Source: Candidatus Poribacteria bacterium (GTDB taxonomy: Bacteria; Poribacteria; WGA-4E; WGA-3G). From it: a stretch of 64,000 nt of DNA. A program made the position numbers and the translations under genes. Within the stretch, counting starts at the first letter, position 1, and each line of letters opens with the position of its first letter. This document shows, piece after piece, positions 38,590-60,715 of the stretch. The stretch spans positions 1 to 64,000 of the forward strand of contig JAPPBX010000102.1 in NCBI GenBank assembly GCA_026702755.1. The letters run 5' to 3'. The notes under the pieces are model-generated. The model was not told the origin of the DNA. It saw only the letters and a list, made by a program, of their open reading frames with translations, and did not search any database.

Positions 38590-40149
38590 TCACACATCTG
38601 AACGGATGAAGACGAGGAAGGCACCTGAAAGAAACACACCGAGCAATAAAACGAGGAGTAGCATATCCACTATCGCTGCATTGAACGTATCACTAAAAGT
38701 GATCTTATCCTCAAATCTTGGAAGTGCCTGTGGTGAAATCGGTTTTTTAGACATTCCCTCGGGGACTCCGATGATATGGAGGCTTTCTGTATCGGCGCGA
38801 TCGGTTTCAGTGATGAAGTCTCGGAACTGTTTGATATGAATATCCACACCTTTGAGGAATTGCAAATGCCGGTTCAACCCTGTGCCGGTCATTGATTGAA
38901 GGGCGTATTGGACAATCGCTGCCGGTGAGAATCGGGTTACCATCCTTGCACGCTGGACCTGCGCGAGTTGTGCGCTTAAATGCTCGCGGTTCAGCCGTTC
39001 CCGAACCTCAACATCTCTGTTGATGAGCTCAGCCCTGATGCGCAATTCCTCCGGACCTGCCTTTTGGGATGCCAATTGCGCCACCGCTAATCTGAGTTCT
39101 GCCTCGTTCTCCTTCGCTAATTTTTCTGCCTCTTCAGGCGAGGTTTTCCAAAGTTCCTCGAGTTCATTGAGAAGACTGGCTGCAGGTGACTGTGCCTCTC
39201 GTTTGTTCCTCATTCGCTCGTCAAAATCTTCGTTAATCTGCTCAAGCGCGCTACTTCTTGCCATTTTCCGTTGGTGAGCGGTCTGGACAGGGGACATCCA
39301 TTTTGTGGCAAGCGTGCCGAGGGTAGAAGGCATAAAGACGACGAGTGCCACCCAAACAATCAATAGCACAACGAGACTGACTCGGCTATCCCGCGTGCTG
39401 GCGGAGACCATCAACCCTACTGCGATGAAGATGCTGGTATAGCCTGAAGCGATCAGCATAATCATTCCCAAACGTCCCCAGTCCGCTGCCCCGAGCTGTG
39501 TCCAACTATCTAAAGAAATCACTGCCAGATTCAGCAGAACTGCAAAGACGAAAGGAATGAGAACGGTTATTAGAGTCCCTAAAAATTTTCCGACTAACAA
39601 CGCGGGGCGAGAAATTGGGTTCGCGAGACACAACCGAAGCGTTCCCCTTTCTCTTTCGCCGGAGAGGGCATCAAACGTAAACAAAAGCGGGATGAAAGAG
39701 AGCAGATAGGTGATAATGAATACCCAGTCTATCTTGGTTGCTTTGGGACGAAGGTTCCGCGCATTCGGATTGGCAGTTGGATAGTCCAGCGACCAGATAC
39801 TCCTTACCTTTCCGCTGGATCCTGTAGTTCTACTCCAAGACCCCCAATTTGTCGTTCCGCGATTCGGTAGAAAGGCATCCCCACCGTCTGCAATGAAAGT
39901 CAGTGCGGATGGCTGTTTGTAAAGTGTACCGGGCCCCTCTTTCAGGAGTTCATAGAGTTCTGTCCGGGACTGCAATTTGTTTTGGTCGGCGGTAATGTTC
40001 TCAGAGTACCTTCGGACTTTGTCTGGATGGCTCTGAAGATGCACCACAGCGTTCGTTACCATGAGTGCTGCCAGAATAAGCGTGGTTAAGGCGAAGCGGA
40101 GACTGTTGAGATGGTCAAAGAATTCTCTTTTAACAATATGTCCGATCAT
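38590..40149 (-). CDS. ABC-2 type transporter permease
   Basis: The 519-residue product starts IGHIVKREFFDHLNSLRFAL, followed by helix 1 and an extracytoplasmic region. The core has TFDALSGERERGTLRLCLAN and NPISRPALLVGKFLGTL, and then four or five helices. A soluble loop rich in charged residues (about 290-470) and a terminal helix complete it. It is a close paralogue of the 51958 product (same motifs throughout). GGAG lies 7 nt before the ATG. The gene lies 18 nt behind the 40168 permease gene, so the two are cotranscribed and probably form a heterodimer. Confidence 0.87.
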   Translation of the reverse strand: MIGHIVKREFFDHLNSLRFALTTLILAALMVTNAVVHLQSHPDKVRRYSENITADQNKLQSRTELYELLKEGPGTLYKQPSALTFIADGGDAFLPNRGTTNWGSWSRTTGSSGKVRSIWSLDYPTANPNARNLRPKATKIDWVFIITYLLSFIPLLFTFDALSGERERGTLRLCLANPISRPALLVGKFLGTLITVLIPFVFAVLLNLAVISLDSWTQLGAADWGRLGMIMLIASGYTSIFIAVGLMVSASTRDSRVSLVVLLIVWVALVVFMPSTLGTLATKWMSPVQTAHQRKMARSSALEQINEDFDERMRNKREAQSPAASLLNELEELWKTSPEEAEKLAKENEAELRLAVAQLASQKAGPEELRIRAELINRDVEVRERLNREHLSAQLAQVQRARMVTRFSPAAIVQYALQSMTGTGLNRHLQFLKGVDIHIKQFRDFITETDRADTESLHIIGVPEGMSKKPISPQALPRFEDKITFSDTFNAAIVDMLLLVLLLGVFLSGAFLVFIRSDV

Positions 40150-40167
40150 CGTGTTTCTCCAATTTTT

Positions 40168-41643
40168 TTATACTTCAACTTTGATAAAAATCAGGAATGT
40201 CACTATAAACAGGATCAGATTCATGAGAAAAAGGAGTAACACATCTGCTAAGGCGCGTTGTGCGTTTTCCGAGACATCCGTCCGTTCAAAGCGAAACTGG
40301 GGCAAATCCCACCAATCTACGGTGCCTTGATCAGAAGCGAACCATTGCCGACTCGCAAGCGCGTCTTTATCATGGAAATAGTCAATCAGCATCTGGCGGT
40401 ATCCTTGGGTGGTACGACTAAAATCTAACATGCCATCTAAATCGGTGCCTGCCCAGGCGGAGGTTGCAAAGGTATAGAGGCTTGCAGGACTGAATTTCAT
40501 CAACCGTTTATCCCACGTTGCTTGCCGGATGTCTGTCCGTGCCAAGCGTTGTTCGCGTATCAACGCAGCTTTTTCTGCCAGGCGGATGTGCGTCGCACCG
40601 ATGAATGCCTGATAGTTTTGGAAATGCGGGACGGACGGTTCTGACTCCTCGTTCACTTTGGTCATGTTAAACTCATACCTTCTGCCGCTCCAAGAGCTTG
40701 ACCCTGAATATCCTATGTTAAACTTAGGGGGATCCCCCTCAAGCGGACTGTTTGCTAAAAATCGTTGTTCTTCCCGGTCTGCTTCTTCCCAAATTTGGTC
40801 AATCTGTTGACTCGCGGACTGTCTTTCGGCGCGCATATCGCCCACCGGATTAATGGAAAAGCGACTCCAGTTCGGATAAACGAGGACCAAACCGACCCAT
40901 AAGAACATACAGAGCATCAGGGATGTAGCCGTGCGCCGGGTTGTTGTGGAAATCAATAGTCCGATGAGGTAGAAAAGGGATAAGTAGACAATCGTCGTCC
41001 AGACTATCCCGCCAATCCGGAGCAGATCCGCTGTGCTGAACTGGATCGAACTGGCGAGGGAGCACAAAATCAACACCATCAGCAGACTCATTAGCACAGG
41101 CAGCAGCAAGCATATCATGGCAGCGATATATTTCCCAAACAGAATCAACCCGCGCCGCACGGGATGTGAGATAACCAGTCGCAAGGTACCGCTTTCCCAG
41201 TCGCCGGCAATTGCATCGTAAGCGAAGAGTAGGGACAGTAGGCTTAGGACGACTTGAAAGATGGATACCAAGTCAATCTGCGAAAAGAGATTTAGATACG
41301 GATTCTCCAAGTTTCGTGCGGAGACACTTGAAATCATCGGTACCTCTCCGTGATAAATTTCGACGGTGGTTCCCAACTGCTTGTCCAACCCTGCACTAAA
41401 AAGACTTAGGGGGTTCGGAGGACGTTCAACAAAGAGTTCCAACCTTGAATAGGTTTCCGCTGCCACCGCTTTCTCACGATGAACTTTCTCTTGCTGGCTA
41501 TAACTCGCCACGCGGTTTTCGTGCTCGTCAATTAGCACAACTGTATTGGCGACGACGAGTAGGAGCGTAATAACGACCGCGGCGAGGAAGCGCGCGCTCA
41601 TCATAAGGGATAGAAGTTCTTGGTTTATCAGTGTGCGTAACAT
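40168..41643 (-). CDS. ABC-2 type transporter permease
   Basis: The 491-residue protein has the layout helix, extracytoplasmic segment, core bundle, large loop, helix. The core signature is FAYDAIAGDWESGTLRLVIS and HPVRRGLILFGKYIAAMICL. It is a paralogue of the 53529 product and more distantly of 29131. GAGG precedes the ATG. It is the first gene of a two-permease unit, and the SelN-like gene at 41666 lies 22 nt upstream on the same strand, so all three may share a transcript. Confidence 0.87.
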   Translation of the reverse strand: MLRTLINQELLSLMMSARFLAAVVITLLLVVANTVVLIDEHENRVASYSQQEKVHREKAVAAETYSRLELFVERPPNPLSLFSAGLDKQLGTTVEIYHGEVPMISSVSARNLENPYLNLFSQIDLVSIFQVVLSLLSLLFAYDAIAGDWESGTLRLVISHPVRRGLILFGKYIAAMICLLLPVLMSLLMVLILCSLASSIQFSTADLLRIGGIVWTTIVYLSLFYLIGLLISTTTRRTATSLMLCMFLWVGLVLVYPNWSRFSINPVGDMRAERQSASQQIDQIWEEADREEQRFLANSPLEGDPPKFNIGYSGSSSWSGRRYEFNMTKVNEESEPSVPHFQNYQAFIGATHIRLAEKAALIREQRLARTDIRQATWDKRLMKFSPASLYTFATSAWAGTDLDGMLDFSRTTQGYRQMLIDYFHDKDALASRQWFASDQGTVDWWDLPQFRFERTDVSENAQRALADVLLLFLMNLILFIVTFLIFIKVEV

Positions 41644-41665: not shown

Positions 41666-43363
41666 CTATTTGGTTTGATTGATGGATTCCTGAATGGAGA
41701 TTCGTGCTCGAAAGGCATTGATACCTCCTTTCTCACCGACCCAACCCCCGGTAGCCCTCAATTGAAAAACCTGTCCTTTGTCAAATTGATATGTGATTGT
41801 TCCTGTTTCACCGGGTTGAATCCCCCATGCCTGTGCAAGTATGCTCTCGGGTGTTTCTTCTGTGGGGGGATCGCTATTGCCATCAAACAGATCGAACGAA
41901 CCTACAGGGGCTGCGCGACCGACGTGAATATCAATGGTGAGTGTGCCACCGTTTTCAAACGCTGTGGCATCTATTTTAATAACGGTGTCATCTTGAGAAC
42001 CTGCCACAGGTGCCTGAAAAGTGTCTAATACCTCTATTGAGGGTTGCGCACGATCAAGCACAACGTTCAGACTGCTTGATAAAGCGACAGGGTCTTTCTC
42101 GCCCAATCCGGGACGTTTTCCTTCCAATGATTCCACAAGGAACAACTGATAATGTTCTGCCTTCATGTACCACTCGTGCCTGGAGAGTTCGTTGACGGGT
42201 TGCCTGCCCATGATTCCAAGTTCAGGCGAGATAATCAAGCAATCTGTAGGTGAGTGTCTCTTCCACGCCCGAACGATTGTTTGGGGCAAAGGAAGCATTT
42301 CGTCAATACCTTTTGCATCGCGCAAACGTTTCATATCGGTATTGAGCACCCATGTGTTGACGAAATTTTCATTCAAGAATTTGATGTTCCCATCATCAGA
42401 GAGGGCAGTTGCCCTCAAACCTTTGCCACTCCCGCCACATGCTTCGTCATCAAGCGGACCATTTATTGAGATAACATGAATGAGCTTCTGTTGTGTCTTT
42501 GCTATTTCCAACGCTTCGTTTACCGATACCCAATTGATTTGTTGTGATTTATAAAAACGCAGTGTCAGGACACGTTTGGCTTCTGCTAAGGTTATTGCTT
42601 CAGAAAATTGAGTGTCTTGAATTATATTTTCCGTCCCCGTACGGAGTTCGATTTGTGGACAAAAGCCCATATCCGCACCAAAGGAGCGACCACCGGGACG
42701 ATGATAGCGGTTGACATCAAAATTGATTGTGCGTTTGGGAACGGACATCTTGAAGAAGGCAATTTTCCCTGCTGTCCGGTTGATAACAAGATTCCCAGTA
42801 AATTGTGAGGGTGTGAACCAGCCGTTCTCTAACTTAAACTCTGCATGAATCCGCAATACGATATCCGCAAATTCAGCGTTATAAGCGCGCAGACACGCCC
42901 ATGCCCCGCGAGAGTCTCCCCAATTGAGGTGCATATCCAGATTGGGATTGGGATGAAGTTGTCTCAGCAATTCCAGTAATCCATCTTGTTCAATCTGCCA
43001 GACTTCGCCAACAGAAACACTATTTCCTTTTTTTGTAAGATTTTCGTGAGGAGATCTCTTTAATTCCTGCCGAGACGGTTTTTCTCTTCCCTTCTGCAGG
43101 CGTGCTTCAGTCGGGAGAAATGCCTCAAACACCGAAGCAGGATGATGCTTTTCAGGTTCGGCGACTCGCAGATTCGCCAGTGCATCCCACGTCAGATGGA
43201 AGTTGTCTTGGGTGTACTCAATTGGGGCAATGAAACCCTTAATCAACACTTTGGCGTTGTGGTCAAGCGTGAGTGCAATTCTATTAGAGGTAGATGCCTC
43301 ATCCGCGAATCCATATTGTAAAGATAGGATAAAAATCAGACAACCGGTACCTAATGTTTTCAT
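41666..43363 (-). CDS. SelN-like secreted redox protein with Gly at the Sec position
   Basis: 565 residues from the ATG at 43363; the frame extends 5 codons further with TTG. A signal peptide (ILSLQYGFADE) is followed by the SelN-type N-terminal region (VGEVWQIEQDGLLELLRQLH; FTPSQFTGNLVINR). The thioredoxin-like domain follows (ISINGPLDDEACGGSGKGLR). Two paralogues have an in-frame UGA at position 310; here it is GGC (Gly, 42434-42436), with the preceding Cys kept. The C-terminal beta domain (IKIDATAFENGGTLTIDIHV; FDLFDGNSDPPTE; INAFRARISI) is shared with the ECF protein and the next SelN copy. Loss of the attacking residue suggests a non-catalytic or altered role. It lies next to the permease pair. 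Confidence 0.83.
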   Translation of the reverse strand: MKTLGTGCLIFILSLQYGFADEASTSNRIALTLDHNAKVLIKGFIAPIEYTQDNFHLTWDALANLRVAEPEKHHPASVFEAFLPTEARLQKGREKPSRQELKRSPHENLTKKGNSVSVGEVWQIEQDGLLELLRQLHPNPNLDMHLNWGDSRGAWACLRAYNAEFADIVLRIHAEFKLENGWFTPSQFTGNLVINRTAGKIAFFKMSVPKRTINFDVNRYHRPGGRSFGADMGFCPQIELRTGTENIIQDTQFSEAITLAEAKRVLTLRFYKSQQINWVSVNEALEIAKTQQKLIHVISINGPLDDEACGGSGKGLRATALSDDGNIKFLNENFVNTWVLNTDMKRLRDAKGIDEMLPLPQTIVRAWKRHSPTDCLIISPELGIMGRQPVNELSRHEWYMKAEHYQLFLVESLEGKRPGLGEKDPVALSSSLNVVLDRAQPSIEVLDTFQAPVAGSQDDTVIKIDATAFENGGTLTIDIHVGRAAPVGSFDLFDGNSDPPTEETPESILAQAWGIQPGETGTITYQFDKGQVFQLRATGGWVGEKGGINAFRARISIQESINQTK

Positions 43364-43464: not shown

Positions 43465-44787
43465 TTACCGAATGGAAATTCGTGCGTGAAAAGCATTGAT
43501 GCTCCCTTTCTCACTGAACCAATCGCCAGTAGCACCCAATTGAAAGACTTTGCCTTGATTGAATCGATAAGCGATTATCCCTGTTCCACCGGGCGGAATT
43601 CCCCATTCATGTGCGAGTCTGTTGTTGGGTATGCCTTCTGTAGGCAGCTCACTGGTCCCATTGAACAGATCAAACGAGCCAGATGCTTTGCCGCTACCGA
43701 CTCGGATATCAATGGTTAGCATACCACCGTCTTCAAACGCGGTAGCATCAATTTTTACAACGGTATAATCCTGATGCTCTCTTTCCGGCGTCCGAAAAAA
43801 GTCTAAGACCTCTGTTTGAATCTGTTGTATCTCTTCTATTTCTGCTTTTGTCTCTTGCGTTTGCGCACCTATTACTCGGAGGCTGTCTACTTGTGGATTG
43901 GATCTACTATTTTTACCCGATGTGTCTATCTTACCCAGTTGTGTTCGCACAGCAGGTTTCGCCTTGATAATGGGTTTCGCTGTTGCCTCCACAATGTCAA
44001 CCTTTATAGCAGAGACTGCTTCCAAACTATAGGGTTGTTGGAAATGGGATAGATATTTATTGCTTATTCCGAGAGTGAGTGTCGCCAAAATAGCGACTGA
44101 CGCGGCTATCGCCCATGGCACTATGGGTTTGCCGTTTGAAGAAGGAACAGGTTTGATGCGGTTGGCTTCTCGTATAATGTTCTCGGTTAAATTGCTGGGC
44201 AATTGTACGCTACTGAGCACTTCACTAATCAAAATTTCTTCGCCGCGTGCCTGTAAACGCTTTCGCGCACGGCTAAGCCGACTCTTAATTGTGTTCGCCG
44301 ATACACCCAAAAATTTGCTAATATCCTTCACTTTCATTTCACCAAGATAATGGAGCGTCACCACCGTCCGTTCGCTCTCCGGCAGTCTTTCCAGAAGTCT
44401 TTTGACGATTTTATGCCGTTGTTCAGTCGTTTCCAGGTCGAGTTGTTCCGATACATGATGTGTATAAGAGGCTTCTTCTATTTCTTCCACGGGTGTGTCT
44501 TCCAGTGATTGCATCATGTATCTGTTTCTTTGAATCCAATTAATACAAAGTCGGTCTACAATGACATAAAGCCATCCAGAAAACTGATTGGGATTCTTTA
44601 GTGTTGAGAGGCTTTTATAGACTCGAAGGAAGGCATCTTGCGTAATTTCTTCAGCAAGGTGAAAGTCCCCAAGTTTGCGCCACGCCAGGGCGTGAACGCT
44701 TTTCTGATGTTTTCGGACTAATGCACCGAATGCCTCTTCGTCCCCGGACAAAATTTTATGAATTAGTTGAACATCGTTTTCTTCCAT
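43465..44787 (-). CDS. membrane-anchored ECF sigma factor with C-terminal beta domain
   Basis: The 440-residue product starts with an ECF sigma factor (about 1-185: SGDEEAFGALVRKHQKSVHA, LAEEITQDAFLRVYKSLSTL, region 4 ISKFLGVSANTIKSRLSRAR). Then comes one membrane helix (about 222-243, WAIAASVAILATLTLGI), a linker, and a C-terminal beta domain (about 335-440, KIDATAFEDGGMLTIDIRV and INAFHARISI). That domain is also in two SelN-like proteins and would lie outside the cytoplasm. A one-chain signal transducer is suggested: an external domain on a sigma factor with no separate anti-sigma. AAAGGAAG precedes the ATG, 13 nt after the 44801 stop. Confidence 0.85.
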   Translation of the reverse strand: MEENDVQLIHKILSGDEEAFGALVRKHQKSVHALAWRKLGDFHLAEEITQDAFLRVYKSLSTLKNPNQFSGWLYVIVDRLCINWIQRNRYMMQSLEDTPVEEIEEASYTHHVSEQLDLETTEQRHKIVKRLLERLPESERTVVTLHYLGEMKVKDISKFLGVSANTIKSRLSRARKRLQARGEEILISEVLSSVQLPSNLTENIIREANRIKPVPSSNGKPIVPWAIAASVAILATLTLGISNKYLSHFQQPYSLEAVSAIKVDIVEATAKPIIKAKPAVRTQLGKIDTSGKNSRSNPQVDSLRVIGAQTQETKAEIEEIQQIQTEVLDFFRTPEREHQDYTVVKIDATAFEDGGMLTIDIRVGSGKASGSFDLFNGTSELPTEGIPNNRLAHEWGIPPGGTGIIAYRFNQGKVFQLGATGDWFSEKGSINAFHARISIR

Positions 44788-44800
44788 CGGAATACTTCCT

Positions 44801-45175
44801 TTATGCTTTGGGTTCTTCTACCTGTTCGGGTTGAGGGTTGCGGAATTTTCCCAGTCGCCACTCTCTATAAACGAGGAAACCACCAAGCAAACATAAGCAG
44901 CTGTATAGCAAGGGTTTTACCAGGGCAACACTCATTAGGAAATCTCCGATATTCATATTCTGCACTCGCTCACCGGTTATTTCACTCGCTATCCATCGAT
45001 CCATATATAAACCAAGGACTTGTTCAAAAATCGAATTAAACATTCCACTGGTAAGGAGTATCGCGCTAATGAGTATCAACCCCTTTGACCTCGTCCGAAG
45101 ACATAAAACCACCAGTAGCACTGCAAGTGCCAACCATACAATAATATTCAGACCGTAAAAAACGCTATTAAACAT
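44801..45175 (-). CDS. small membrane protein with three or four helices
   Basis: Start at MFNSVFYGLN with GGAGG 8 nt upstream, giving 124 residues. Helices are seen at about 10-30, 36-54 and 85-105 (IIVWLALAVLLVVLCL, GLILISAILLTSGM, ALVKPLLYSCLCLLGGFLVY). The tail is cytoplasmic and proline-rich. I do not recognise a family. It is encoded 13 nt before the membrane-anchored ECF factor on the same strand, so a role in controlling that factor is possible but unproven. Confidence 0.72.
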   Translation of the reverse strand: MFNSVFYGLNIIVWLALAVLLVVLCLRTRSKGLILISAILLTSGMFNSIFEQVLGLYMDRWIASEITGERVQNMNIGDFLMSVALVKPLLYSCLCLLGGFLVYREWRLGKFRNPQPEQVEEPKA

Positions 45176-45197
45176 CGTCAGAACCTCCAACGAGATA

Positions 45198-45260
45198 GCG
45201 AAACCCAACGCAAACCTGCCATGTTTGTAGCGTTTGACCTAAAGAACGTTGGGTTTCGCT
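45198..45260. repeat. inverted repeat AGCGAAACCCAACG
   Basis: AGCGAAACCCAACG (45198-45211) and its perfect complement CGTTGGGTTTCGCT (45247-45260) bracket 35 nt directly upstream of the small membrane protein gene. It is part of the promoter/leader region. Confidence 0.8.
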
Positions 45261-45397: not shown

Positions 45398-47377
45398 TCA
45401 CTTGGCATCATAAATGCGCCAGATACCTTCCACTTTTCGCATCTTAACAGGTACTTCCGGCGGCTGCGCCGTCGGTACTCTTAATCGGAAGTGGAATTCA
45501 TCACCCACATATTCGCTGCTTACAATCTCCATCTGACTCAACATTTGACGTATCTGAGGACGCATATCCTCTGGCATATCCTCAAAATCACTTTCAAATG
45601 TCTCTCTGGCATCTCCTGTAAGCATCGAGCGTATTGTCTCTGAATCAAGATTTTTAAATGCTTCCACGAAAGTGTTCATTACATCTTCCGGAGATTGCCC
45701 CGTGCGCGCTGATGACACTTTTCTCGGCTCTGAATTCGGTTCGACAGAGATTTTTGCCCAAAAAGCGTTGACCAACCCTTTCTCGCTGAACCAACTGCCA
45801 GTACCCCCCAACTTAAAGAGCTGCCCTCGGTCAAAAGGGTGAACGATTTGTTCACTCATGCCCGGCTCAATATCCCACGCAGAAGCCAACGCATTATCAG
45901 GTACACCTGTTGTGGGAAGTTCCGTATCTCCGGCGAATAGATCGAACGAACCCTGCCCTTCGCCATTGCCCACCCAGATATCAATGGTGAGTTTACCACC
46001 GTCTTCAAACGGTGTGGTGTCAATCTCAACGGTTGTGTAATCCTGATTACCCCGGCCGGGCGCGCGAAAAATGTTCAGGATCTCCATTGAGGGTCGCTGA
46101 GCGTTGAGTGCGACGTGTCGACTACTACTCGGTCCGCGGTGTTTCCCAAGTGCCGCCAAAGCATCCTTTAGAAATGTTTCATACTTTTTCACGTCAATAT
46201 TGGACTCGCCCGGTTTGCGATAGGGTAAATGACTTATCAACTCTAACTCGGGTGAGAGTATAAAAGTGTTTACCGAGCGACCTACCTTGTGTTGTACCAC
46301 AGCCTCTTCAAGTGTTGTAGAAATCGTGCTTGCCAATCTACTTACCGGTTCACCCTTCGTCCCGCTCTGAAATTCAGGAAGGTCCCCTAAAAGTACGAAT
46401 ACATTGACAAATTGTTCGTTGAGAAGTCCTATAATTTTTGAATTGGAGAGGACACCTGCCCTCAAAGATTTGCCGCTCCCTCAGCACGATTCATCATCAA
46501 ATACACCCCATGTCATCAGCACATGAATAGGGCGATCCTTCGCTTGTGCCTGTGCAACAACCTCTTCAATAGGGAACCTCTTGATCTCGGCAGACTTGTA
46601 GAAGGCAGCCGCCAACATCGCCTTCGTCTCTTCTTCTGTAATGGCAGTCTCCCAGACAATATCACTCTGATCATCTGCGTTCTGTCCGATAAGTTCCATG
46701 CGTGGGACGAAAACCATATCCGCTGCGTTAAAGGCGTTGATGTCAACATTGGTATTGCGAGAAGGGAGATAGAGCCAAAATTCTCGAATTGTCCCATTGT
46801 TCCGATTCAGCACCAATCGTCCAGTAAATTGTGCCGGTGTAAAGTAAGCAGGAGCGTCCTTATCCAAGAGGAATTCCGCATGAACTCTGAAAACAATTTC
46901 TGCATAATCGGACGATAGTGCCCGTAGACACGCGAAGCCACCGTCCGACTCCATACCACTTACGGCTCTACGATGATCTGCTGTCGTATACCAGCCACCC
47001 GGATTTAAATGCATTTCAGCAGTTGCCCCGGGGTGAAATTGACGAAGAAAGGGGACAATCTTGTTAACATCAAGTTCCCATAGGTCTCCGACGGTAACAT
47101 CTCCGTTGGGGAAAAAGGCTGTGAAAGCGTCTGCTTTATATTCCTGACTTGGATGCGCCGGTGAAAGGTTGTTGAAGATGGCTGCATTTTCCGGTGAGTA
47201 ATTGGACAGACCCAATGCTGAATCTGCAATAGGTTCCCAATAGGCACGCACTTGTAAAGTTGCCTTCTCATCCAATGTATTCTCCATGTTTATCTTATTA
47301 GCGGCACTTTGAAGGGTTAAGTTCAACCCTAAAACCCATATTACTAATATTGAGACAATCAACCAATTCCTTTTCAT
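45398..47377 (-). CDS. SelN-like selenoprotein (in-frame UGA, Sec299)
   Basis: Read through the UGA at 46481-46483, the product has 659 residues. A signal peptide (about 1-26) is followed by the SelN-type region (VGDLWELDVNKIVPFLRQFH; FTPAQFTGRLVLNR). The thioredoxin-like domain then reads HVLMTWGVFDDESC-U-GSGKSLR, very close to human SELENON around SCUGSGRTLR. After it come the LLNEQFVNVFVLLGDL segment, the beta domain shared with the ECF protein (FEDGGKLTIDIWVG) and an NTF2-like C-terminus (VMNTFVEAFKNLDSETIRSM). Downstream of UGA, GAGGGC-AGGT-GTCCTC forms a SECIS-like hairpin. AGGAG precedes the ATG. If UGA were a true stop, the C-terminal half would have no start signal. Confidence 0.85.
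46448..46463 (-). promoter_or_regulatory. SECIS-like hairpin of the first SelN-like gene
   Basis: In the mRNA, 17 nt after the UGA, GAGGGC pairs with GTCCTC (6 bp, one G-U) around the loop AGGU. The loop has a G at its second position. Size, distance and loop G fit bacterial SECIS elements, which lie inside the coding region. The same hairpin occurs in the second gene at the same distance. Confidence 0.75.
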
Positions 47378-47567: not shown

Positions 47568-49073
47568 TCACTTGACATCATAAATGAACCACACGCCCTC
47601 CACTTTTCGCATCTTAAAAGATTTCTCCGGCGACTGCGGCAGTCTTAATCGGAAGTGGAATTCATCATCTACATATTCGCTGCTCAAAACCTCCATCTGA
47701 CTTAACATTTGACGCATCTGGGTACGCACATCTTCTGGCAAATTTTCAGTATTCATTCCAAATGCTTCTCTGGCATCCTCTGTAAGCATCGGAAGCATTT
47801 TCTCTGAGTCAAGATTCTTAAATGCTTCCACGAAAGCGTTCATTACATTTTCCGCTGAGGTTCGCTGAACGTCGAGAACGTTGAGAGCGACATGTCGAGT
47901 ACTACCTAATCCGGGGCGTTTCCCTTCTAACGATTCCACGAGAAACCGACGGTAAGCCTCCTCCATGTTATTTATCGCATTGAATAGTTCATTGACCGGT
48001 TGCCGTCCCATCAGTTCCAGGTCTGGCGATATTACCAAGCAATCTACTGGAGAATGCCGCTTCCACCCACTAATAATTGTTCGCGCCAAAGGCTGCATTC
48101 CGTCAATTCCCTTCGCTTCACGTAATCTTTTCATATCAGTGTTCAGCACCCAAGTATTGACAAATTTTTCGTTTAGCGATTCGATGATTCGGTCATTGGA
48201 GAGGACAACTGCCCTCAAGGTTTTTCCGCTCCCTCAGCACGCCTCGTCGGTGAGCGGTCCATTGATCGAAACCACATGAATCGGCCGTTGTAGCGACTTT
48301 GCTATCTCTAACGCTTTGTCCATTGCTACCCATTCGATTTGTTCCGACTTGTAGAAACGGTGTATCAGCCTACGTTCCGCCTCTTCCTGGGTGATGGCTT
48401 CGGTGAATTGCGTGTCTGACGTGATAGCCTCTGTACCCGCAAGAAGTCCTATTTGGGGACAGAAGCCGGCATCCGTACCGTAGGAGGAACTGTTCTTGTG
48501 TTGCCGGTTCACATCGAAGTTGAGTGTGCCTTCAGGGACGGACATCTCAAAGAAGGCGACCTTAGCCTCGGCACGGTTGATAACCAAACGCCCAGCAAAC
48601 TGGGACGGGGTGAACCAACCGTCCTCTAAAGCAAATTCTGCATGAATGCGAAACACAATTTCGGCAAAGAGATCATTGTAAGCGCGAAGCGTTGCCCATA
48701 ATCCTGATGAATCCACAGGACTGTGCATCTCCACGTATGGGTTGGGGTGAAGTTGCTTCAGCAATTCCAGAACGCCCTCCGGTTTAACTTGCCACAGTTC
48801 GCCAACGGAAACAGGTTGATGCGGCAGAAATGCGTGGAAAACAGACGCTGCATATCGCTTTTCTGGCTCGGCGACTTTCAAGTTCGCTAATGTGTCCCAA
48901 TTCAGATGAAAGTTGTCTACTGTAAACTCAATCGGGGCAATGAAGCCTTTGACAGAGACTTCTGACATGCTATCAAGGTTAAGTGTGATTTTGTTAGGTA
49001 TGGCGTTCTCATCAGCGTTGAGTTGTCCACTCATCATCACCAGAATGAGAAGTCCAATCGTTAAAGTTTTCAT
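47568..49073 (-). CDS. SelN-like selenoprotein (in-frame UGA, Sec280)
   Basis: Read through the UGA at 48234-48236, the product has 501 residues. A signal peptide (LLILVMMSGQLNADE) is followed by the SelN-type region (VGELWQVKPEGVLELLKQLH; FTPSQFAGRLVINR). The thioredoxin-like domain is HVVSINGPLTDEAC-U-GSGKTLR, continuing LNEKFVNTWVLNTDMKRLRE. It lacks the beta domain of its neighbours and ends with the NTF2-like module (VMNAFVEAFKNLDSEKMLPM; FKMRKVEGVWFIYDVK). A SECIS-like hairpin follows the UGA. AAGGAG precedes the ATG. Sec in place of the first Cys of a CxxC-type site implies thiol-disulfide or peroxide chemistry outside the cytoplasm. Confidence 0.85.
48201..48216 (-). promoter_or_regulatory. 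SECIS-like hairpin of the second SelN-like gene
   Basis: GAGGGC-AGUU-GUCCUC begins 17 nt after the UGA and has a 6-bp stem with one G-U pair and a 4-nt loop with G at position 2. Only one loop base differs from the copy in the first gene. Confidence 0.75.
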
Positions 49074-49595: not shown

Positions 49596-50477
49596 TCACT
49601 TCAGGCGAATTTCACCCGTAGAGGCGTGCAATTTCAGTAAGGGTCCACCACCGTTCAGTGTTCCCTTTAGCAGATTTTCTGTAATTTCATCTTGAGGTTG
49701 AAGAGAGAAATCGCTTGAGATTTTCCCTTGGGTTTGAGCGTCTATGTCAATGGCAATATGGGGGCCGAGCGTAACATCTATCGCTCCACCCATTGATGCG
49801 TGCAAAGTCCAGGGATGTTGTGGTTGCATTGTCATTTCCGCACGGATATTTCCCATACCGGTTGTCAAGTTAACGCTACTTTGACACCCTTTGAGAGTAA
49901 TGTTCCCACTCAAACCGGTTTCTCCCCAGACTTCGTCTTGGATTTTTCCAAGATAAATATTACCGCCTAAAGCCTCTGCTCTAACTGACCCTATCAGGTC
50001 ACCGACATGAATATCTCCGCTGGATGCAGTTTTGAGCGTGACATTATACTGACGTGGGACTGTTGCTTGAATTTCAACTTTAAACCACTTCAATCCGTCT
50101 TGCCAATATTCCCGCCCACGCTTGAATTTTCCCACGACTCGGATATTCGATTGGGTATCCAGCCCTTCGTATTCAATCGTAGTTTCAAAATCCTCAAACA
50201 ATTCGTCCCGCCATCCGACAAGTTTCGGTCGCATTATTAGCAGTCTCGATCTCCATATTTTTTTAATGGCGATATCGACGTGATTGTGATCTGTGGTTTC
50301 TATATTGATTGTACCAAACTCTGTGTCAACTGTTAAATGTCCGGTAGGATAAACGTTGTGCCCTTCTGATCTCGAGCTTGATTGGCTGATTCCTGATGAG
50401 AGTAGACCAAGAATAATCAATGATAGGAACAGAAGCGGAAAGATCACAAAAGCGACGAACCGCTTGGACTTTGTCAT
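49596..50477 (-). CDS. DUF4097-like exported beta-repeat protein
   Basis: The 293-residue protein has an N-terminal hydrophobic segment (about 8-30, FVIFPLLFLSLIILGLLSSG) and then a beta-helix-like repeat. Marks are HLTVDTEFGTINIETTDHNH, VDIAIKKIW, TLKTASSGDIHVGDLIGS and GNITLKGCQSSVNL with GNIRAEM. The pattern of short TG.I.v segments fits the DUF4097 adhesin-like family. AAAAGGAG precedes the ATG. It stands alone between repeat-rich regions. Function is unknown; a periplasmic or surface structural role is plausible. Confidence 0.78.
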   Translation of the reverse strand: MTKSKRFVAFVIFPLLFLSLIILGLLSSGISQSSSRSEGHNVYPTGHLTVDTEFGTINIETTDHNHVDIAIKKIWRSRLLIMRPKLVGWRDELFEDFETTIEYEGLDTQSNIRVVGKFKRGREYWQDGLKWFKVEIQATVPRQYNVTLKTASSGDIHVGDLIGSVRAEALGGNIYLGKIQDEVWGETGLSGNITLKGCQSSVNLTTGMGNIRAEMTMQPQHPWTLHASMGGAIDVTLGPHIAIDIDAQTQGKISSDFSLQPQDEITENLLKGTLNGGGPLLKLHASTGEIRLK

Positions 50478-50903
50478 CTGAGTCTCCTTTTGTTAGTATC
50501 CAATTCACCAATGGGTTATTTAATACTATGCCTATCTGGCATACTTGTCAAGAAGATAAGCGGTGCCACTCTTGCGACTGCATCAAGAAGCCTTCCTGTC
50601 CCTCTTATACCATTTCTGAAAGTAGATATTGCATGAACAACTTTTCTGAAAGGGGCACGGTGGCACAGACTAACAGTCTATGCTACATGCACATTGAAAG
50701 GTATTCAATTAGAAATGGTATTATGCGAGGATTCGGGACAAGAAGGCTCCTTCTACAAATATTAACCCAAGTTGTCGTTTGGGTTCTCAAACAGCAACCT
50801 CAGCAGAATAAAATTACTGGCTATTTCCCAAAATACCTAACAGGATAACACACCGTTAGCTGTTGTTATTCTGACGTTTGATTGATGATGGACCGGAAGT
50901 TAC
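50478..50903. other. 426-bp intergenic region with one large inverted-repeat element
   Basis: Apart from the inverted-repeat element at 50590-50747 and a solitary AACCCAAGTTG word (about 50763, like the family-C end) I see nothing clear. The plus-strand open frame across it (50420-50848) has no start signal and no recognisable content. Confidence 0.55.
50590..50747. mobile_element. MITE-like family D (158 bp)
   Basis: The left arm has GCCTTCCTGTCCC (50590-50602) and TTATACCATTTCT (50605-50617). The right arm has AGAAATGGTATTAT (50711-50724) and GGGACAAGAAGGC (50735-50747). The arms are inverted complements in the same order with small indels. Inside is the palindrome GCACAGACT-AAC-AGTCTATGC (about 50664-50687). 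It has no coding capacity, and only one copy is seen here. Confidence 0.65.
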
Positions 50904-51794
50904 TTATTCGCTTCCCGAATCAGCCGATTTGACTTCATACTTCTTTAATTCCAAGTTTAATTCAGGGGGCTTGACTGTAGGCAGAGCTCCAACTTCAGGA
51001 GGCATAGTCGTAGAGATAGTTTTCAGAAAAATATCCTCGGCCTTTTGATGAAGCTTGACAATCCCGATATTGGGTGCTACCCACAGCGTTGTAACGGATT
51101 CGCCGGGCGGATCTGATCCCGTTTCCGGTGAAGGCACTGCTGCTACCTCTGTTTCTGTTCGGTATTCAATTTTCAAACAGTCTTCAAAAGTGCCAGCGGG
51201 TGTCTCAACGTTTTCTCTGCCCACCACGGTCCCTGTTTCGACAATAGTGAATTCGAGTGTGATTTCTGGAGGATCTTGGGGAGGAACAGGTGTCAGTGTG
51301 ATTTTGGCTTTTATCTGCGTTGCCTTCCACTTTTCGTTGAAGGTGACAGGGATCGGCAGTGCATAAAACGGGTCTTGTGCCTCTATCTCAATATTATAGA
51401 GCATAATAAACGGTGCCCCCATTTTCTGCAATAATTTCAGAAAAGCCTCCATCTCTTTGGTAAGATGTGCTTTGACGGCTTTCTCTGCCTCATCACCGAC
51501 CCAGAACGTGACCTTCTCCTCACCGATCCGATAGAAATTGGGATGGATGTGATAATCATAGTCTGCCCAATCCTCGAAGGCGGGTTCATAGTTGAAGGCA
51601 TGATACGTCTTACCCTCAATTTCTTTTTTCTCTACAGCACGGCGTGTCAATTCATTGCCATCCTGATCTTCGTAAACCCAGTAACTCCCTTGCACGTGTG
51701 GAAAATAGGCATCTTTGCTTTCCGCCGCGAACAGCGTTGTACTGAAGCTAAAAATGAGCAGTAGACTTAAAACGAAACGAAATCTTTTTAACAT
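50904..51794 (-). CDS. secreted protein related to the beta-rich module of the M61-like family
   Basis: Start at MLKRFRFVLS (AGAGGAA 7 nt upstream), giving 296 residues and a signal peptide ending TTLFAAES. The body resembles the N-terminal module of the peptidase paralogues: AYFPHVQGSYWVYEDQDG (like YFPLHVDNMWRYKW), ETPAGTFEDCLKIEYRTETE (like VSAGVFSDCLKHKTVF) and TTLWVAPNIGIVKLHQ (like RYLWFAKGIGVVKMRY). It therefore represents the free-standing version of that module. It is likely periplasmic or outer-membrane associated. The function is not known. Confidence 0.75.
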   Translation of the reverse strand: MLKRFRFVLSLLLIFSFSTTLFAAESKDAYFPHVQGSYWVYEDQDGNELTRRAVEKKEIEGKTYHAFNYEPAFEDWADYDYHIHPNFYRIGEEKVTFWVGDEAEKAVKAHLTKEMEAFLKLLQKMGAPFIMLYNIEIEAQDPFYALPIPVTFNEKWKATQIKAKITLTPVPPQDPPEITLEFTIVETGTVVGRENVETPAGTFEDCLKIEYRTETEVAAVPSPETGSDPPGESVTTLWVAPNIGIVKLHQKAEDIFLKTISTTMPPEVGALPTVKPPELNLELKKYEVKSADSGSE

Positions 51795-51836
51795 GATAGG
51801 TTCCTCTTTATTAGTAAGGTGAGTTCTGTATTTGTA

Positions 51837-51885
51837 GCGCAAACTTTTAGTTTGCGCCTTATGGGACACAATCTAAAAGATTGTG
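51837..51885. repeat. two palindromes in the leader of the 50904-51794 gene
   Basis: GCGCAAACT-TTT-AGTTTGCGC (51837-51857) and CACAATCT-AAA-AGATTGTG (51867-51885), flanked by TTTGTA and CTACAAA. They belong to the TTGTAG..CTACAA palindrome class. Confidence 0.75.
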
Positions 51886-51957: not shown

Positions 51958-53487
51958 TTATACTTCTGCGCGTATGAAGATAAGAAATGCCCCCGAGAAA
52001 AATACACCGAGCAGTAAAACGAGCAACAGCAGATCTAAAGTCGCGGTGTTGAACGTATCGCTGAAGGCGATCTTATCCTCAAATTTCGGAATCGCTTCAC
52101 TTGAGAACGGTTTCTCGGACATGCCTTCAGGGATGCCGATGAGGTGGCGACTTTGCATGTCTGCTCTGTCGGTTTCGACGATGAATTGTCGGAATTGTTT
52201 TGTGTAATCGTGCACGCGTTCTAAGTATTGCAAGTGGCGGTTGAAGCCGGTACCTGCCATTGATTCAAGGGCGTATTGGACAATCGCCGCTGGTGAGAAC
52301 CGGGTTACAACCCTTGCGCGTTGTACCTGTACGATTTGTGCGTCTAAATACTCGCGGTTAAGGCGTTCTCGGGTTTCTATGTCTCTGTTGACGAGTTCCG
52401 CCTTGAGTGCCAGTTCTTCATCACCTTCTGTTTCCCACGCCGCCATATACTTTTCCGCTTCGGCTCTGGCAGCTTCAGGGTCAGTTTCAAAAAGTTTCTG
52501 AAGTTCACTTAAGCTTGGAAGGTTAGGGGTCTTTTTTTCTTTGATTGCGTTCAATCGATCATTATAGTCAGCGTCAATCTGACCAAGGGCTGCGTCTCTT
52601 GAGGCATGAAATTGATCGATCGTTTGGACGGGTGGCATCCATTTTGTGGAAAGGGTGCCGAGGGTTGACGGCATAAAAATCACAGTGGCTACCCAAATCA
52701 ATAGAAGCACAACGAGACTTATCCGAGGCTCTCGCGTGCCAGCAGAAACCATCAGTCCCAATCCGACAAAGATACCCGCGTAGCCGAAAGCAATCAGTAG
52801 AACCAATCCTAAACGTCCCCAATCGGCTGTACTTAGTTGTGTCCAATTGTCAGTCGAGATCACCGCCAGATTCAGCAATACTGCGAAAACAAACGGAATG
52901 AGGACAGTTATTAAAGTGCCTAAGAATTTACCGATCAACAGAACAGGGCGCGAAATCGGATTCGCGAGACACAATCGCAAGGTTCCCTGTTGTCGCTCAC
53001 CTGAAAGCGCGTCGAAGGTGAATAAAAGCGGAATAAAGGAGAGCAGATAGGTGATGATGAATACCCAATCTATCTTTGTTGCCTGCGGACGCAGGTCTCC
53101 TTCATCTGGATTCGCGGAGCCGTAACTCAGCCACCAATTGCTTTTCGCCTTCCACCCTGGACCACTTTTGGACCAAGTCCCCTCGCTCTTCGGTGTATGT
53201 CCCGGTAGATAAGCGTTGCCGCCGTCTGCAATGAAGGCAAGCGCAGAGGGACGTTTATGGAGGTTCCCTGGTCCCTTTTCGGCTAAAGTATACAACTGCG
53301 TCCGAGATTTCAACGTATTGAGGGACTCGGTAACATTCTTGGAATAATTACGGACCCTTTCTGAGTGTGTCCGAAGATGCACTACGGCGTTGGTGACCAT
53401 TAAGGCGGAAAGTATCACAACCGTTAGAATAAAACGCAGGCTATTGATGTGATCAAAGAGTTCTCGTTTGATAATATGCCAAATCAT
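51958..53487 (-). CDS. ABC-2 type transporter permease (paralogue of 38590-40149)
   Basis: The 509-residue membrane protein starts IWHIIKRELFDHINSLRFIL. It keeps TFDALSGERQQGTLRLCLAN and NPISRPVLLIGKFLGTL, and ends with helix LLLLVLLLGVFFSGAFLIF. Motif for motif it matches the 38590 product. The loop between the core and last helix is shorter and differs most. AAGGAAAA precedes the ATG. Together with the 53529 gene it forms a second copy of the permease pair at 38.6-41.6 kb, but here no ATPase gene follows. Confidence 0.87.
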   Translation of the reverse strand: MIWHIIKRELFDHINSLRFILTVVILSALMVTNAVVHLRTHSERVRNYSKNVTESLNTLKSRTQLYTLAEKGPGNLHKRPSALAFIADGGNAYLPGHTPKSEGTWSKSGPGWKAKSNWWLSYGSANPDEGDLRPQATKIDWVFIITYLLSFIPLLFTFDALSGERQQGTLRLCLANPISRPVLLIGKFLGTLITVLIPFVFAVLLNLAVISTDNWTQLSTADWGRLGLVLLIAFGYAGIFVGLGLMVSAGTREPRISLVVLLLIWVATVIFMPSTLGTLSTKWMPPVQTIDQFHASRDAALGQIDADYNDRLNAIKEKKTPNLPSLSELQKLFETDPEAARAEAEKYMAAWETEGDEELALKAELVNRDIETRERLNREYLDAQIVQVQRARVVTRFSPAAIVQYALESMAGTGFNRHLQYLERVHDYTKQFRQFIVETDRADMQSRHLIGIPEGMSEKPFSSEAIPKFEDKIAFSDTFNTATLDLLLLVLLLGVFFSGAFLIFIRAEV

Positions 53488-53528
53488 TTTTTTAATTTTC
53501 CTTGCGGTTTGATGTGGTTCGTTTGGTA

Positions 53529-55016
53529 TTAGACTTCAATTTTGGTGAAAATCAGAGATGTCAGCGTGAACAGAACCAGATTGATTAATAGGAGTAAAAA
53601 CAATTCGGGCAGTGCCCGCGTTGTGTTTTCCCAAACATCCGCCCGCTTAAAACGGAACTGTGGCAAGTCCCACCAGTCTACTGTGCCTTTGTCAGAAGCG
53701 AACCATTGCCGACTGCCGAATGCATCTTTGTCGTGGAAATAGTCAATGACCGTACGCCGGTAACCCTGAGCGGCTTGCACAAAATCAAACATGCCCTCCA
53801 AATCCGTGCCTGCCCAAGCGGAGGTTGCAAACGTATATAAGCTGGCAGGACTGAGTTTCATTAAACGTTCATGCCATATCGCTCTCCGGAGAGAGGTGGT
53901 ATCTAAAGTCTGTTTTCGGACTAAAGCGATCTGTTCTGCCGAACGGATGTACAAGGCACCCATAGTCGCATGATAGTTTTGAACGTGCGGCACGAGGGCA
54001 TCTGATTGATTTCCCAATTTCAGATCTATTCCATATCGTCTACTGAGGTGCCCGCCTGATGAGAAACTATTTGACTGCTGAACATCCAGATTAAACTTTC
54101 GAGGTTTGCCTTCGAGCGGACTGTTCGCTAAAAATTGGCTTTCCTCTCTGTCAACCTCCTCCCAAATCTGTTCAATCTGTTGATTCGCCGATGAATGTAT
54201 TGCGCGCGTATCACCCACCGGGGTGATGGCAAATCGGCTCCAATTTGGATAGACGAGTACCAAAGCTACCCACAAAAACATACAGAGCATCAATGATGTG
54301 GCAGTCCGGCGCGTTGTTGTGGAAATCAACAGTCCGATCAGATAAAAAGCAGACAAATAGATGGTTGTCGTCAGAACTATCCCGCCGATCCGAAGGAAAT
54401 CTTCTCCACCCAATTGGATTGAACCGACAGTAGATAACAGGATCAGGACCATCAGCAGGCTCATCAGTACGGGGAGCAGCAGGCAGGCCATAGCACCAAT
54501 ATATTTGGCAAGTAGAATGGATCCACGCCTCACTGGATGGGAGATAACCAGGCGTAAGGTGCCACTTTCCCAGTCTCCTGCAATTGCGTCATAAGCGAAA
54601 AGCAGTGCCATCAGGCTCAAAACGACTTGAAAAATGAGGACGAGATCAATCTTTGAAAAGAGGTTGAGAAACGCGTTATCGAGACTTCGCGCCGAACCAT
54701 CTGAAATCATCGGGACGCGACCGTAGTAGATGTCAAAAGTACTTCCAAGCCGCTTATCCAATCCCGCGCTAAAGAGACTTAAGGGGTTCGGCGGACGTTC
54801 AACAGATAGTTTTAGCATTGAGTAGGTTTTCGCTTCCTGCGCTTTCTGACGATGAACATTCTCTTGCTGGCTATATCTCACCAATCGACGCTCGTAATCT
54901 TCGAGAAGCACAACGGCATTGGCGAAAACGAGGAGAAGCGTAATCACAACAGCAGCAAAGAATCGCGCACTCATCAAATGCGTTAGAAGCTCTTGGCGGA
55001 TCAGGTTTCGTAGCAT
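53529..55016 (-). CDS. ABC-2 type transporter permease (paralogue of 40168-41643)
   Basis: The 495-residue protein has FAYDAIAGDWESGTLRLVIS and HPVRRGSILLAKYIGAMACL in the core. Its final segment, WDLPQFRFKRADVWENTTRA then a helix, parallels the 40168 product. TTAAGGAAG precedes the ATG. It is 41 nt upstream of the 51958 gene, so the two are cotranscribed and likely form one transporter. The duplication covers the full two-gene unit of about 3 kb. Confidence 0.87.
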   Translation of the reverse strand: MLRNLIRQELLTHLMSARFFAAVVITLLLVFANAVVLLEDYERRLVRYSQQENVHRQKAQEAKTYSMLKLSVERPPNPLSLFSAGLDKRLGSTFDIYYGRVPMISDGSARSLDNAFLNLFSKIDLVLIFQVVLSLMALLFAYDAIAGDWESGTLRLVISHPVRRGSILLAKYIGAMACLLLPVLMSLLMVLILLSTVGSIQLGGEDFLRIGGIVLTTTIYLSAFYLIGLLISTTTRRTATSLMLCMFLWVALVLVYPNWSRFAITPVGDTRAIHSSANQQIEQIWEEVDREESQFLANSPLEGKPRKFNLDVQQSNSFSSGGHLSRRYGIDLKLGNQSDALVPHVQNYHATMGALYIRSAEQIALVRKQTLDTTSLRRAIWHERLMKLSPASLYTFATSAWAGTDLEGMFDFVQAAQGYRRTVIDYFHDKDAFGSRQWFASDKGTVDWWDLPQFRFKRADVWENTTRALPELFLLLLINLVLFTLTSLIFTKIEV

Positions 55017-56264: not shown

Positions 56265-57674
56265 TCAAATATCCAATCTAAAAAATTTCAGGAACGCCAC
56301 GGTTGTCAACACCACTGATAGGAAACAGAGCAGCAGTAAATCTACTACAGAGTGTCGAAGGGTTTCTGATAAGGAGGTTTCTGTCATGTCTGGCGGCGGG
56401 GCAATCTTCTTGGGTTCAGCTTTACCAGATACGAATCGCGCCATTGTGGCAAAGTCATCGTCCGTAATTTCACTGAAATACTCTTCTTCAAGCTGAATGT
56501 AATAACGATTGCCCGCTTGAAAGTAGGTGTTTCTTTTTATTTTCCCGGTCTCGGCTAAATTCATGGCGAGGTAAATCAAGGAAGATGTGGGAGTGATTCG
56601 AGAAAGGGTTTCTCCAACCGATTCTTGCCGCTTTTTTTCACGCTGGTATTCTCGCTCGAGTTTGTCGACTTGCTCCTGAAACTTCTGTCGATATTCGGCA
56701 TCGATTGGTTCCCTGAGTTCCTTGATTTTTGGGAGAGTCTCGTTGAGACTAAACGAAGTCCCTAAAGTTTCTGTTATTTTTTTCCCAAGCACTTGTTCCT
56801 TTTCTGCATTAAGGTTATTGCGAATCGCAGTTTTTTCCATGTGGACGCTCTGAATCGCGCGTGTTGGGGCGATAAGTTTAGCGGTGAGAAACCCAACGCG
56901 TGGGGCAATCAGCACGGCAAGTACCCAGACGGTAAAGGCAATAATGAGTGCTGTTTTCGAGTTGTCTAAGTAGGTGGAAATTACGGTCCCTATTGCAAAA
57001 AATACACCGATGTAGAGCAACGAAACTAACGTCAAACTGAGCACACGTAGGAAGATGTCAGATTCACCCAAAGGAAACCCTTGCGAAACAAGCAGGAGTA
57101 AACCTAAGAGAAACGCTACGAGGAACGGAACAACAAACACGATATATCCACCAATTAGTTTACTCCACAAGAACAAATCTCGTGGTAAGGCATTTGCCAG
57201 AGTTATCCGAAGCGTTCCAGCCTCTTTTTCACCTGCGACAGCATCAAACGTAAACAACAGCGCAAGTAGACTGAAGACAGTGCTAACAACGAACAGAAAA
57301 TCGAGGTTCCCTAAAGCGGAGGAGAGAGGGGCTTCTGCAACGGACGTTGAACCCTGTTTTACACCGTTGCGTGTCATTCCAAGATAACTGGGAAGCGATT
57401 CCTCTAAACCTTTCGCGAAGACGCTCAAAGGTGTCGGTTCAAGAAAGAGTTTGGAAACTTCCAGGTCCGGGGCTGGGGAATCTGGCAGTTTCTCCTCGGT
57501 TTCTGCGTCCGATAGTTTGATGGATTCTTGATAATTGACTTGGTTTTGAAGGTAATTGCGGTAATTGATGTGTAGGGTGAGCGGAACAAGCAGGAGACAC
57601 ATCAACAGGAGCGCGACGAACCGGACGCTCAGAATATGATGCATCATCTCTTTTTGAATTAGCGTCATTAACAT
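56265..57674 (-). CDS. ABC-2 type transporter permease (paralogue of 59220-60635)
   Basis: The 469-residue protein starts LMTLIQKEMMHHILSVRFVA, followed by helix 1, a short extracytoplasmic segment and the core TFDAVAGEKEAGTLRITLAN with ALPRDLFLWSKLIGG. A long charged loop (about 270-370, coiled: KLEREYQREKKRQESVGETL) and a terminal helix (VVDLLLLCFLSVVLTTVAFL) follow. It belongs to a second subgroup of the ABC-2 permeases, distinct from the pairs at 38.6 and 52 kb. AAGGAG lies 10 nt before the ATG. It is 180 nt upstream of the coiled-coil protein gene. Confidence 0.86.
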   Translation of the reverse strand: MLMTLIQKEMMHHILSVRFVALLLMCLLLVPLTLHINYRNYLQNQVNYQESIKLSDAETEEKLPDSPAPDLEVSKLFLEPTPLSVFAKGLEESLPSYLGMTRNGVKQGSTSVAEAPLSSALGNLDFLFVVSTVFSLLALLFTFDAVAGEKEAGTLRITLANALPRDLFLWSKLIGGYIVFVVPFLVAFLLGLLLLVSQGFPLGESDIFLRVLSLTLVSLLYIGVFFAIGTVISTYLDNSKTALIIAFTVWVLAVLIAPRVGFLTAKLIAPTRAIQSVHMEKTAIRNNLNAEKEQVLGKKITETLGTSFSLNETLPKIKELREPIDAEYRQKFQEQVDKLEREYQREKKRQESVGETLSRITPTSSLIYLAMNLAETGKIKRNTYFQAGNRYYIQLEEEYFSEITDDDFATMARFVSGKAEPKKIAPPPDMTETSLSETLRHSVVDLLLLCFLSVVLTTVAFLKFFRLDI

Positions 57675-57715
57675 TTAGCGTGCTCCTTATGCAATGGACA
57701 AAACCTATCTTTCTC

Positions 57716-58744: not shown

Positions 58745-58802
58745 AATGTCTCCTCCGTTTCTAAAGCAGATGTTTGCGTCATCGGTCGCTTTTCCTTATT
58801 AT

Positions 58803-58955
58803 AACCTAAGCCACCTATTTGTGCACATGGCACTCCGCTGGAGTGCAAGAGGTTGTAGACTGCATTTTCTATAGACATAGCACCCCTACGGGGTGAGGAA
58901 AGTATTTGAAAAACCGTGTTAGAATGCCAAAAATCCGTTGGTAGCAACTTGGGTT
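58803..58955. mobile_element. MITE-like family C, copy 2 (153 bp)
   Basis: AACCTAAGCCACC (58803) and GTAGCAACTTGGGTT (58941-58955) bound an element of the same length and internal order as 11833-11985: GCACTCC-GC-TGGAGTGC, then CACCCCTACGGGGTG. A further GCAAGTTGCCACC word follows at 58964-58976. Confidence 0.75.
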
Positions 58956-59219
58956 ATTATAACGCAAGTTGCCACCTTTCGTAGCATAATCTGTTAGATT
59001 GTGCAGAAGAAGGCGCAACCTAATAGGTTATTATACACATGTTAGCGAAAAAAGTTGCAATGAATTGCTTCAATTCCCACCGCGCATTTTGAGGTTGTCG
59101 TTACTACAAACGAGTTTCAAAAAAGTTGCATTTTATTTTAAAAAAACAGTATATCCAAGGAATCCTTGAAGCGGAAAGGCTAATTGGTTATCAATAAACG
59201 TACATCGCAGCTTGTTGCA
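58956..59219. other. repeat-rich intergenic region downstream of the second permease paralogue
   Basis: It contains the palindrome AATCT-GTT-AGATT with TTGTGC (58985-59004), AACCTAATAGGTTA (about 59018-59031), a TATAAT/TTGCAA pair on the minus strand (about 59025-59060) that could be a promoter for 58744, and the second copy of the 90-bp repeat (59061-59150). Confidence 0.55.
59061..59150. repeat. 90-bp intergenic repeat, copy 2
   Basis: GCATTTTGAGGTTGTCGTTA and CTACAAACGAGTTTCAAAAA, matching 38121-38212 in sequence and in its place behind an ABC-2 permease gene. Confidence 0.7.
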
Positions 59220-60635: not shown

Positions 60636-60715
60636 GTTTTCACCTTGCCTTGCTATTCTAAGGTCAGTTTTCAATCAAGAAAGTCCTATAATGCTGAAAA
60701 TCCTGGTTCAGACAA

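Follow-up and report, generated by a model that had tools for sequence, protein, structure and literature searches.

A predicted selenoprotein N family with thirteen UGA-containing copies in a genome of the Poribacteria

Selenoprotein N (SELENON) causes a human myopathy, and both its reaction and its structure are poorly known; an EF-hand makes the vertebrate protein a calcium sensor. The redox motif of the human protein is SCUG (PMC12839072, PMC8584023). None of the 119 prokaryotic selenoprotein families catalogued in 2026 is SelN-like (PMC13188914), and a review of SelN from the same year leaves bacteria unmentioned (PMC12839072). Our search for a bacterial SelN in open-access texts, which are part of the literature, found no description. 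Homologues in Poribacteria, a lineage with many bacteria that are sponge symbionts, may have been mentioned in writings on SELENON.

The bacterial proteins described herein appear to resemble SELENON in the order of an N-terminal and then a thioredoxin-like domain, in an S/A-C-U-G motif, in a predicted selenocysteine (Sec) and its flanking residues, and in an RNA hairpin that immediately follows the UGA (the SRE in vertebrates, PMC3541580). Several traits set them apart: the vertebrate EF-hand is absent, the SECIS lies inside the coding region whereas that of SELENON is in the 3′UTR, there are up to 15 copies per genome, and a beta domain, a tail or a TlpA domain has been added. Moreover, SELENON is a type II ER membrane protein acting on SERCA, whereas the bacterial proteins are predicted to be exported or cytoplasmic. 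With the thioredoxin-fold members of the 119 known bacterial families they share a UGA with a bSECIS, a predicted redox fold and the SelA/SelB/SelC/SelD route, but the usual motif there is UxxC or CxxU (PMC13188914) and here it is a vicinal C-U. A vicinal Cys-Sec redox pair also occurs in the C-terminal GCUG of mammalian thioredoxin reductase, a likeness of motif alone, neither of fold nor of position, that has been noted for SELENON itself (PMC12839072, PMC8584023). Finally, DUF255 or DsbH-type thioredoxin domains (PF03190), which are without the Sec pair, gave a weak match in two of 24 members at E 0.04, below the level of evidence.

The window, that is, the whole stretch of 64,000 nucleotides that was analyzed, comes from a draft Candidatus Poribacteria genome of 5.84 Mb in 126 contigs (96% complete). 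Three SelN copies lie within it, numbered 1 to 3 here. On the minus strand, copy 1 forms one frame of 659 residues that opens at ATG 47377 and closes with TGA at 45398-45400. Its sole interruption is the TGA at 46481-46483, in the protein context DDESC-U-GSGKSLR; this re-reading agrees with an earlier sequence-only reading, which had noted two adjacent frames of the same phase separated by that codon only. The following features were delimited for the three copies.

45398..47377, minus strand: SelN copy 1, a single coding sequence with an in-frame UGA, 659 residues; frame open through one TGA
47300..47377, minus strand: signal peptide or signal anchor, from hydropathy; close relatives have the lipobox LSLQSC here
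46658..47266, minus strand: N-terminal SelN domain with RxHAEF, FTPxQFxGxL and NxDxN; 95 bits against the provisional human SELENON
46142..46645, minus strand: thioredoxin-like domain with the Cys-Sec pair; 110 bits against the provisional human SELENON
46481..46483, minus strand: UGA predicted to be read as Sec, residue 299, after the invariant Cys298; 80 of the 85 distinct sequences of the family have TGA here
46448..46463, minus strand: bSECIS hairpin of copy 1, with a 6-bp stem GAGGGC/GUCCUC, apical loop AGGU and 23 nt from UGA to loop
45704..46105, minus strand: beta domain; phmmer 142 bits against the C-terminus of the adjacent ECF sigma factor
45401..45670, minus strand: C-terminal alpha/beta tail, possibly NTF2-like; weak Pfam matches, E 0.04-0.2
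47568..49073, minus strand: SelN copy 2, in-frame UGA at 48234-48236, DEAC-U-GSGKTLR
48201..48216, minus strand: bSECIS hairpin of copy 2
41666..43363, minus strand: SelN copy 3, with Gly (GGC 42434-42436) in place of Sec; SECIS loop G lost

The human SELENON sequence used for comparison was a provisional one, not taken from a database, and its residues were checked against published positions. Against this provisional query the family profile scored 213 bits (E about 1e-66), with identities of 27-34% and two main blocks, N-terminal (95 bits) and thioredoxin-like (110 bits), in the same order. Twenty-two columns were identical in all 24 bacterial rows and the provisional human sequence, including H293, G315, N340, G454, G465 and R469, among which we take N340 and H293 to be SELENON disease positions. 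Additionally, the ESC-U-GSGK of copy 1 is a SCUG-type motif with Sec. The likeness to SelN that had been proposed was recovered, and homology to SELENON over the N-terminal and thioredoxin-like domains appears strong, with a provisional human sequence as the query.

One competing explanation is convergence: a family of thioredoxin-like bacterial selenoproteins would have come to resemble SELENON around the CUGSG motif alone. The provisional nature of the human sequence leaves room for it, as do the weak matches in other phyla, confined to the thioredoxin-like part, and the lack of any model linking the family with SELENON in Pfam and NCBIfam, neither of which covers the family or gave a useful match. 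Yet the match extends over two separate domains of conserved order (95 and 110 bits), and the provisional sequence has the published residues at C461, U462, G463, R466 and R469 (PMC12839072, PMC3541580) and, at codon 315, a G and hence a codon starting with G, consistent with c.943G>A (PMC12839072). We regard convergence as improbable.

The codon that interrupts copy 1 was TGA in 80 of the 85 distinct family sequences, which came from about 45 genomes, while the remaining five had Gly or Ser and none had Cys; such conservation is confirmed to be far beyond chance. The equivalent of Cys298 was invariant across the family. An orthologue of copy 1 in genome G007, 87% identical, had TGA at the same codon, and dN/dS between the two was 0.19 before the TGA and 0.40 after it. 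Synonymous change was lowered in the thioredoxin-like part of this pair, which fits an overlapping RNA signal. Purifying selection also appears to act downstream of the UGA, as supported by the dN/dS of about 0.4.

The Sec-decoding background of the genome is established, with selA, selB, selD and the tRNA-Sec gene (selC) all found, the last directly after selB; the absence of this machinery, the main objection that the sequence-only reading had foreseen, is thereby removed. Across genomes of the same family, selB was present in 55 of 59. As a separate observation, selD itself has an in-frame TGA, in the context CAG-U-ASK (L067, G000:C96:159939-160862), and is a predicted selenoprotein.

A bacterial-type hairpin was found where a SECIS had been sought, 23 nt after the UGA, and it carries both compensatory changes and codon bias. 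The consensus of Sec-type genes is GAGRRC-[AGGU/AGUU]-GYYCUC, with six pairs, a four-base loop that has G second, and 23 nt from the UGA. The published bSECIS model has a stem of 4-16 bp, a loop of 3-9 nt with G in the first two loop positions, a distance of 16-37 nt from the UGA and an MFE of at most -7.5 (PMC13188914), and the 6 bp, 4-nt loop (AGGU/AGUU) and 23 nt seen here lie within these bounds. The 45-nt fold of copy 1 reached -9.9 kcal/mol, but its lowest-energy pairs differ from those of the hairpin, so that the energy item alone is weak and the support for a SECIS comes from comparison and not from a single folding energy. Specifically, 179 of 180 cells (99.4%) were paired across 30 dissimilar sequences, two of the six pairs had changed on both sides, and none of the slid registers that were compared approached this pairing. 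In 19 sequences that form a subfamily and mostly have Pro for Val, a register shift kept the hairpin, with 7 bp and a loop that was mostly GGUC. Codon usage was skewed at the same sites: Leu+11 was CTC in 79 of 80 sequences (vs 17% elsewhere in these genes), Arg+7 was AGG or AGA in 80 of 80 (vs 23% elsewhere), and Gly+9 was always GGT where the residue was Gly. A SECIS covariance model run on the genome returned exactly 14 family sites at E below 1e-5, the next match being at 0.01; the genome's best was that of copy 2 (48195-48239, 69.8 bits). The loop G was lost in copy 3 and its orthologue in genome G001, where ACT replaces GGT or GTT, as expected once the UGA is gone.

The presence of the Sec machinery, the conserved bSECIS hairpin, the retention of the UGA across the clade and the purifying selection downstream together support the reading of the UGA in copy 1 as Sec, and with it the single 659-residue protein first proposed from the letters, into which we infer that Sec is inserted. 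Were the TGA instead a real stop, two proteins would be made, the second by restart at TTG 46465. The sequence-only reading had held that no start codon with a ribosome-binding site lies near the TGA; this was incorrect in that the in-frame TTG at 46465 follows an SD-like GAGGGAG about 10 nt upstream, yet its import survives, for the matching codon was TTG in only 51 of 80 relatives and CTG or another codon in 29 (26 and 3, respectively). Because this codon is not conserved, restart was rejected. A stop at the TGA would also break the thioredoxin-like domain internally, the TGA is invariant in Sec-type genes with the nucleotides after it held to the hairpin, and the Sec machinery is present, all of which makes termination and restart very improbable. 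Sequencing error or pseudogene decay, to which a draft in 126 contigs might lend some credit and which had been named as a way in which the Sec reading could fall, is already refuted by conservation and its probability is negligible: 80 distinct sequences share the TGA at this codon, about 45 genomes contribute them, single-contig assemblies among these, and dN/dS is about 0.2 upstream and 0.4 downstream. Equally negligible is a general change of code, which would account for readthrough in copy 1, but UGA is the normal terminator of window genes, including copy 1 itself at 45398-45400, and a Sec-type gene of the family contains just one UGA internally, always at the same codon.

The predicted decoding of the UGA as Sec extends to most of a large family. 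Loci read individually gave 13 UGA paralogues and one Gly paralogue in this genome, so that the earlier description of copy 1 as a rare protein understated the case, with three of the 14 copies in the window alone. A protein search with the readthrough protein found matches in 68 of 146 relatives, and of the 85 Poribacteria genomes searched with the core profile, 65 had a match, all of one order. The same profile found nothing convincing in approximately 300 genomes of other phyla, where three had weak matches to the thioredoxin-like part alone. A contig search gave a single locus, from an uncultured Poribacteria MAG (L057), and a plasmid search gave no match. The SECIS model, applied to nine more genomes, counted between 0 and 15 sites in each, most in closed or nearly closed assemblies, and thus copy number differs between genomes and some members lack the family. 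Judged by these predicted sites, a Poribacteria genome may hold up to 15 copies of this expanded family.

Among 111 scored copies, in which overlapping loci were counted, the residue at this codon was Sec in 104, Gly in six and Ser in one. Cys homologues, usual for bacterial selenoproteins but not required, were represented by none of the 111. In a tree of 82 rows the residue changes at the Sec column needed at least four steps, and the group of copy 3 had Sec-type orthologues interleaved with Gly-type ones, copy 3 itself being placed among Sec-type orthologues. Sec had given way to Gly or Ser repeatedly, though never to Cys, as seen at window 42434-42436 and at L068, L070, L071, L072 and L073.

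The architecture behind the core is variable. The extra beta domain that had been proposed for copy 1 is real and is common to the adjacent ECF sigma factor (phmmer 142 bits); the tail behind it is alpha/beta, and its likeness to NTF2 is faint (E 0.04-0.2). No EF-hand was found by Pfam in the copy 1 protein or in 24 core sequences at E up to 1. AlphaFold gave low-confidence models for the whole protein and the core from five sequences (mean pLDDT 50 and 57), and the predicted order in the thioredoxin-like domain, alpha-beta-alpha-beta-alpha-beta-beta-alpha, fits a thioredoxin-like fold at that low confidence (mean pLDDT 57). PDB searches for a solved relative matched none, with no useful match from the profile search and nothing meaningful from a fold search with the low-confidence core model. 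About half of the copies had a signal peptide or lipobox and the rest had neither, and some family members are apparently exported and some cytoplasmic. One SelN paralogue is fused to a thioredoxin domain of the TlpA/AhpC-TSA type, in which the usual CxxC region reads WNSFC (L062, G000:C122:6000-10500); that domain replaces the beta domain and tail behind the core.

Copies 1 and 3 lie in a cluster with the following neighbors.

38590..41643, minus strand: two ABC-2 permeases beside copy 3, conserved neighbors
43465..44787, minus strand: ECF sigma factor, conserved neighbor of SelN, in which a C-terminal beta domain as in SelN follows a hydrophobic segment (Pfam Sigma70_r2 and r4; synteny in other genomes)
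44801..45208, minus strand: small membrane protein, conserved neighbor
49596..51869, minus strand: DUF4097-like and DUF3108-like exported proteins, conserved, upstream of SelN

The order DUF3108, DUF4097, SelN, small membrane protein, ECF sigma, SelN3 and ABC-2 permeases recurred in several genomes, and further cluster types too had an ECF sigma gene adjoining SelN. The ECF sigma factors with the beta domain, which stand beside SelN clusters in many genomes, are possibly membrane-tethered regulators. A second one with a hydrophobic segment and a SelN-type beta domain was noted beside the C17 cluster (L058:12897-14225), and a third, of 1008 residues, carries BNR-like repeats, SxDxGxTW, in its C-terminal portion (L058:14842-17868, G000:C17). 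Large, similar genes for ABC-2-type permeases, often paired, recur in the window (29131-32383, 38590-41643, 51958-55016 and 56265-60674), and those tested match PF12679 and DUF3526.

It is highly probable that copy 1 is a bacterial homologue of SELENON that gains Sec via a SECIS and is a Cys-Sec thioredoxin-like oxidoreductase encoded in a cluster with an ECF sigma factor. In the proposed sequence of events, SelB with Sec-tRNA would bind the SECIS 23 nt downstream and the ribosome would read the UGA at 46481-46483, yielding the 659-residue protein, which would be exported or anchored in the membrane or by a lipid. Vicinal Cys298-Sec299 would most likely form a reversible selenenylsulfide, and the pair may reduce or rearrange disulfides of envelope proteins, while the neighboring, presumably membrane-tethered ECF sigma may control SelN. 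The likely function, as predicted from sequence, is that of an exported or lipid-anchored Cys-Sec thioredoxin-fold oxidoreductase. Its conserved cluster, in which a presumably membrane-tethered ECF sigma shares the beta domain, suggests that copy 1 probably acts in a redox or stress response of the envelope. That Sec gives way to Gly or Ser, and in no scored copy to Cys, would be unusual in a simple thiol oxidoreductase, and this counts against the role proposed for Sec here.

What is new is that a selenoprotein family already known occurs in another domain of life, where its predicted decoding is bacterial, its domains are combined in new ways and its copies are many. The SRE after the UGA (PMC3541580) lies where the bacterial SECIS lies, and a common origin is possible. 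That SELENON passed between the Poribacteria lineage and early animals or other eukaryotes, leaving the vertebrate SRE as a remnant of a bacterial SECIS, strikes us as a rather unlikely history, but where SELENON and its SRE came from becomes testable now that a selenoprotein family discussed as eukaryotic is placed in a second domain of life. That some genomes have 13-15 predicted Sec genes of this family, and none a Cys variant, bears on why Sec is irreplaceable. Moreover, dozens of divergent bacterial copies, free of the EF-hand and makeable with bacterial Sec machinery, would be tractable for structure and chemistry, and a Poribacteria bacterium with thirteen SELENON relatives predicted to be decoded at UGA offers a bacterial branch on which this poorly understood protein may be studied.
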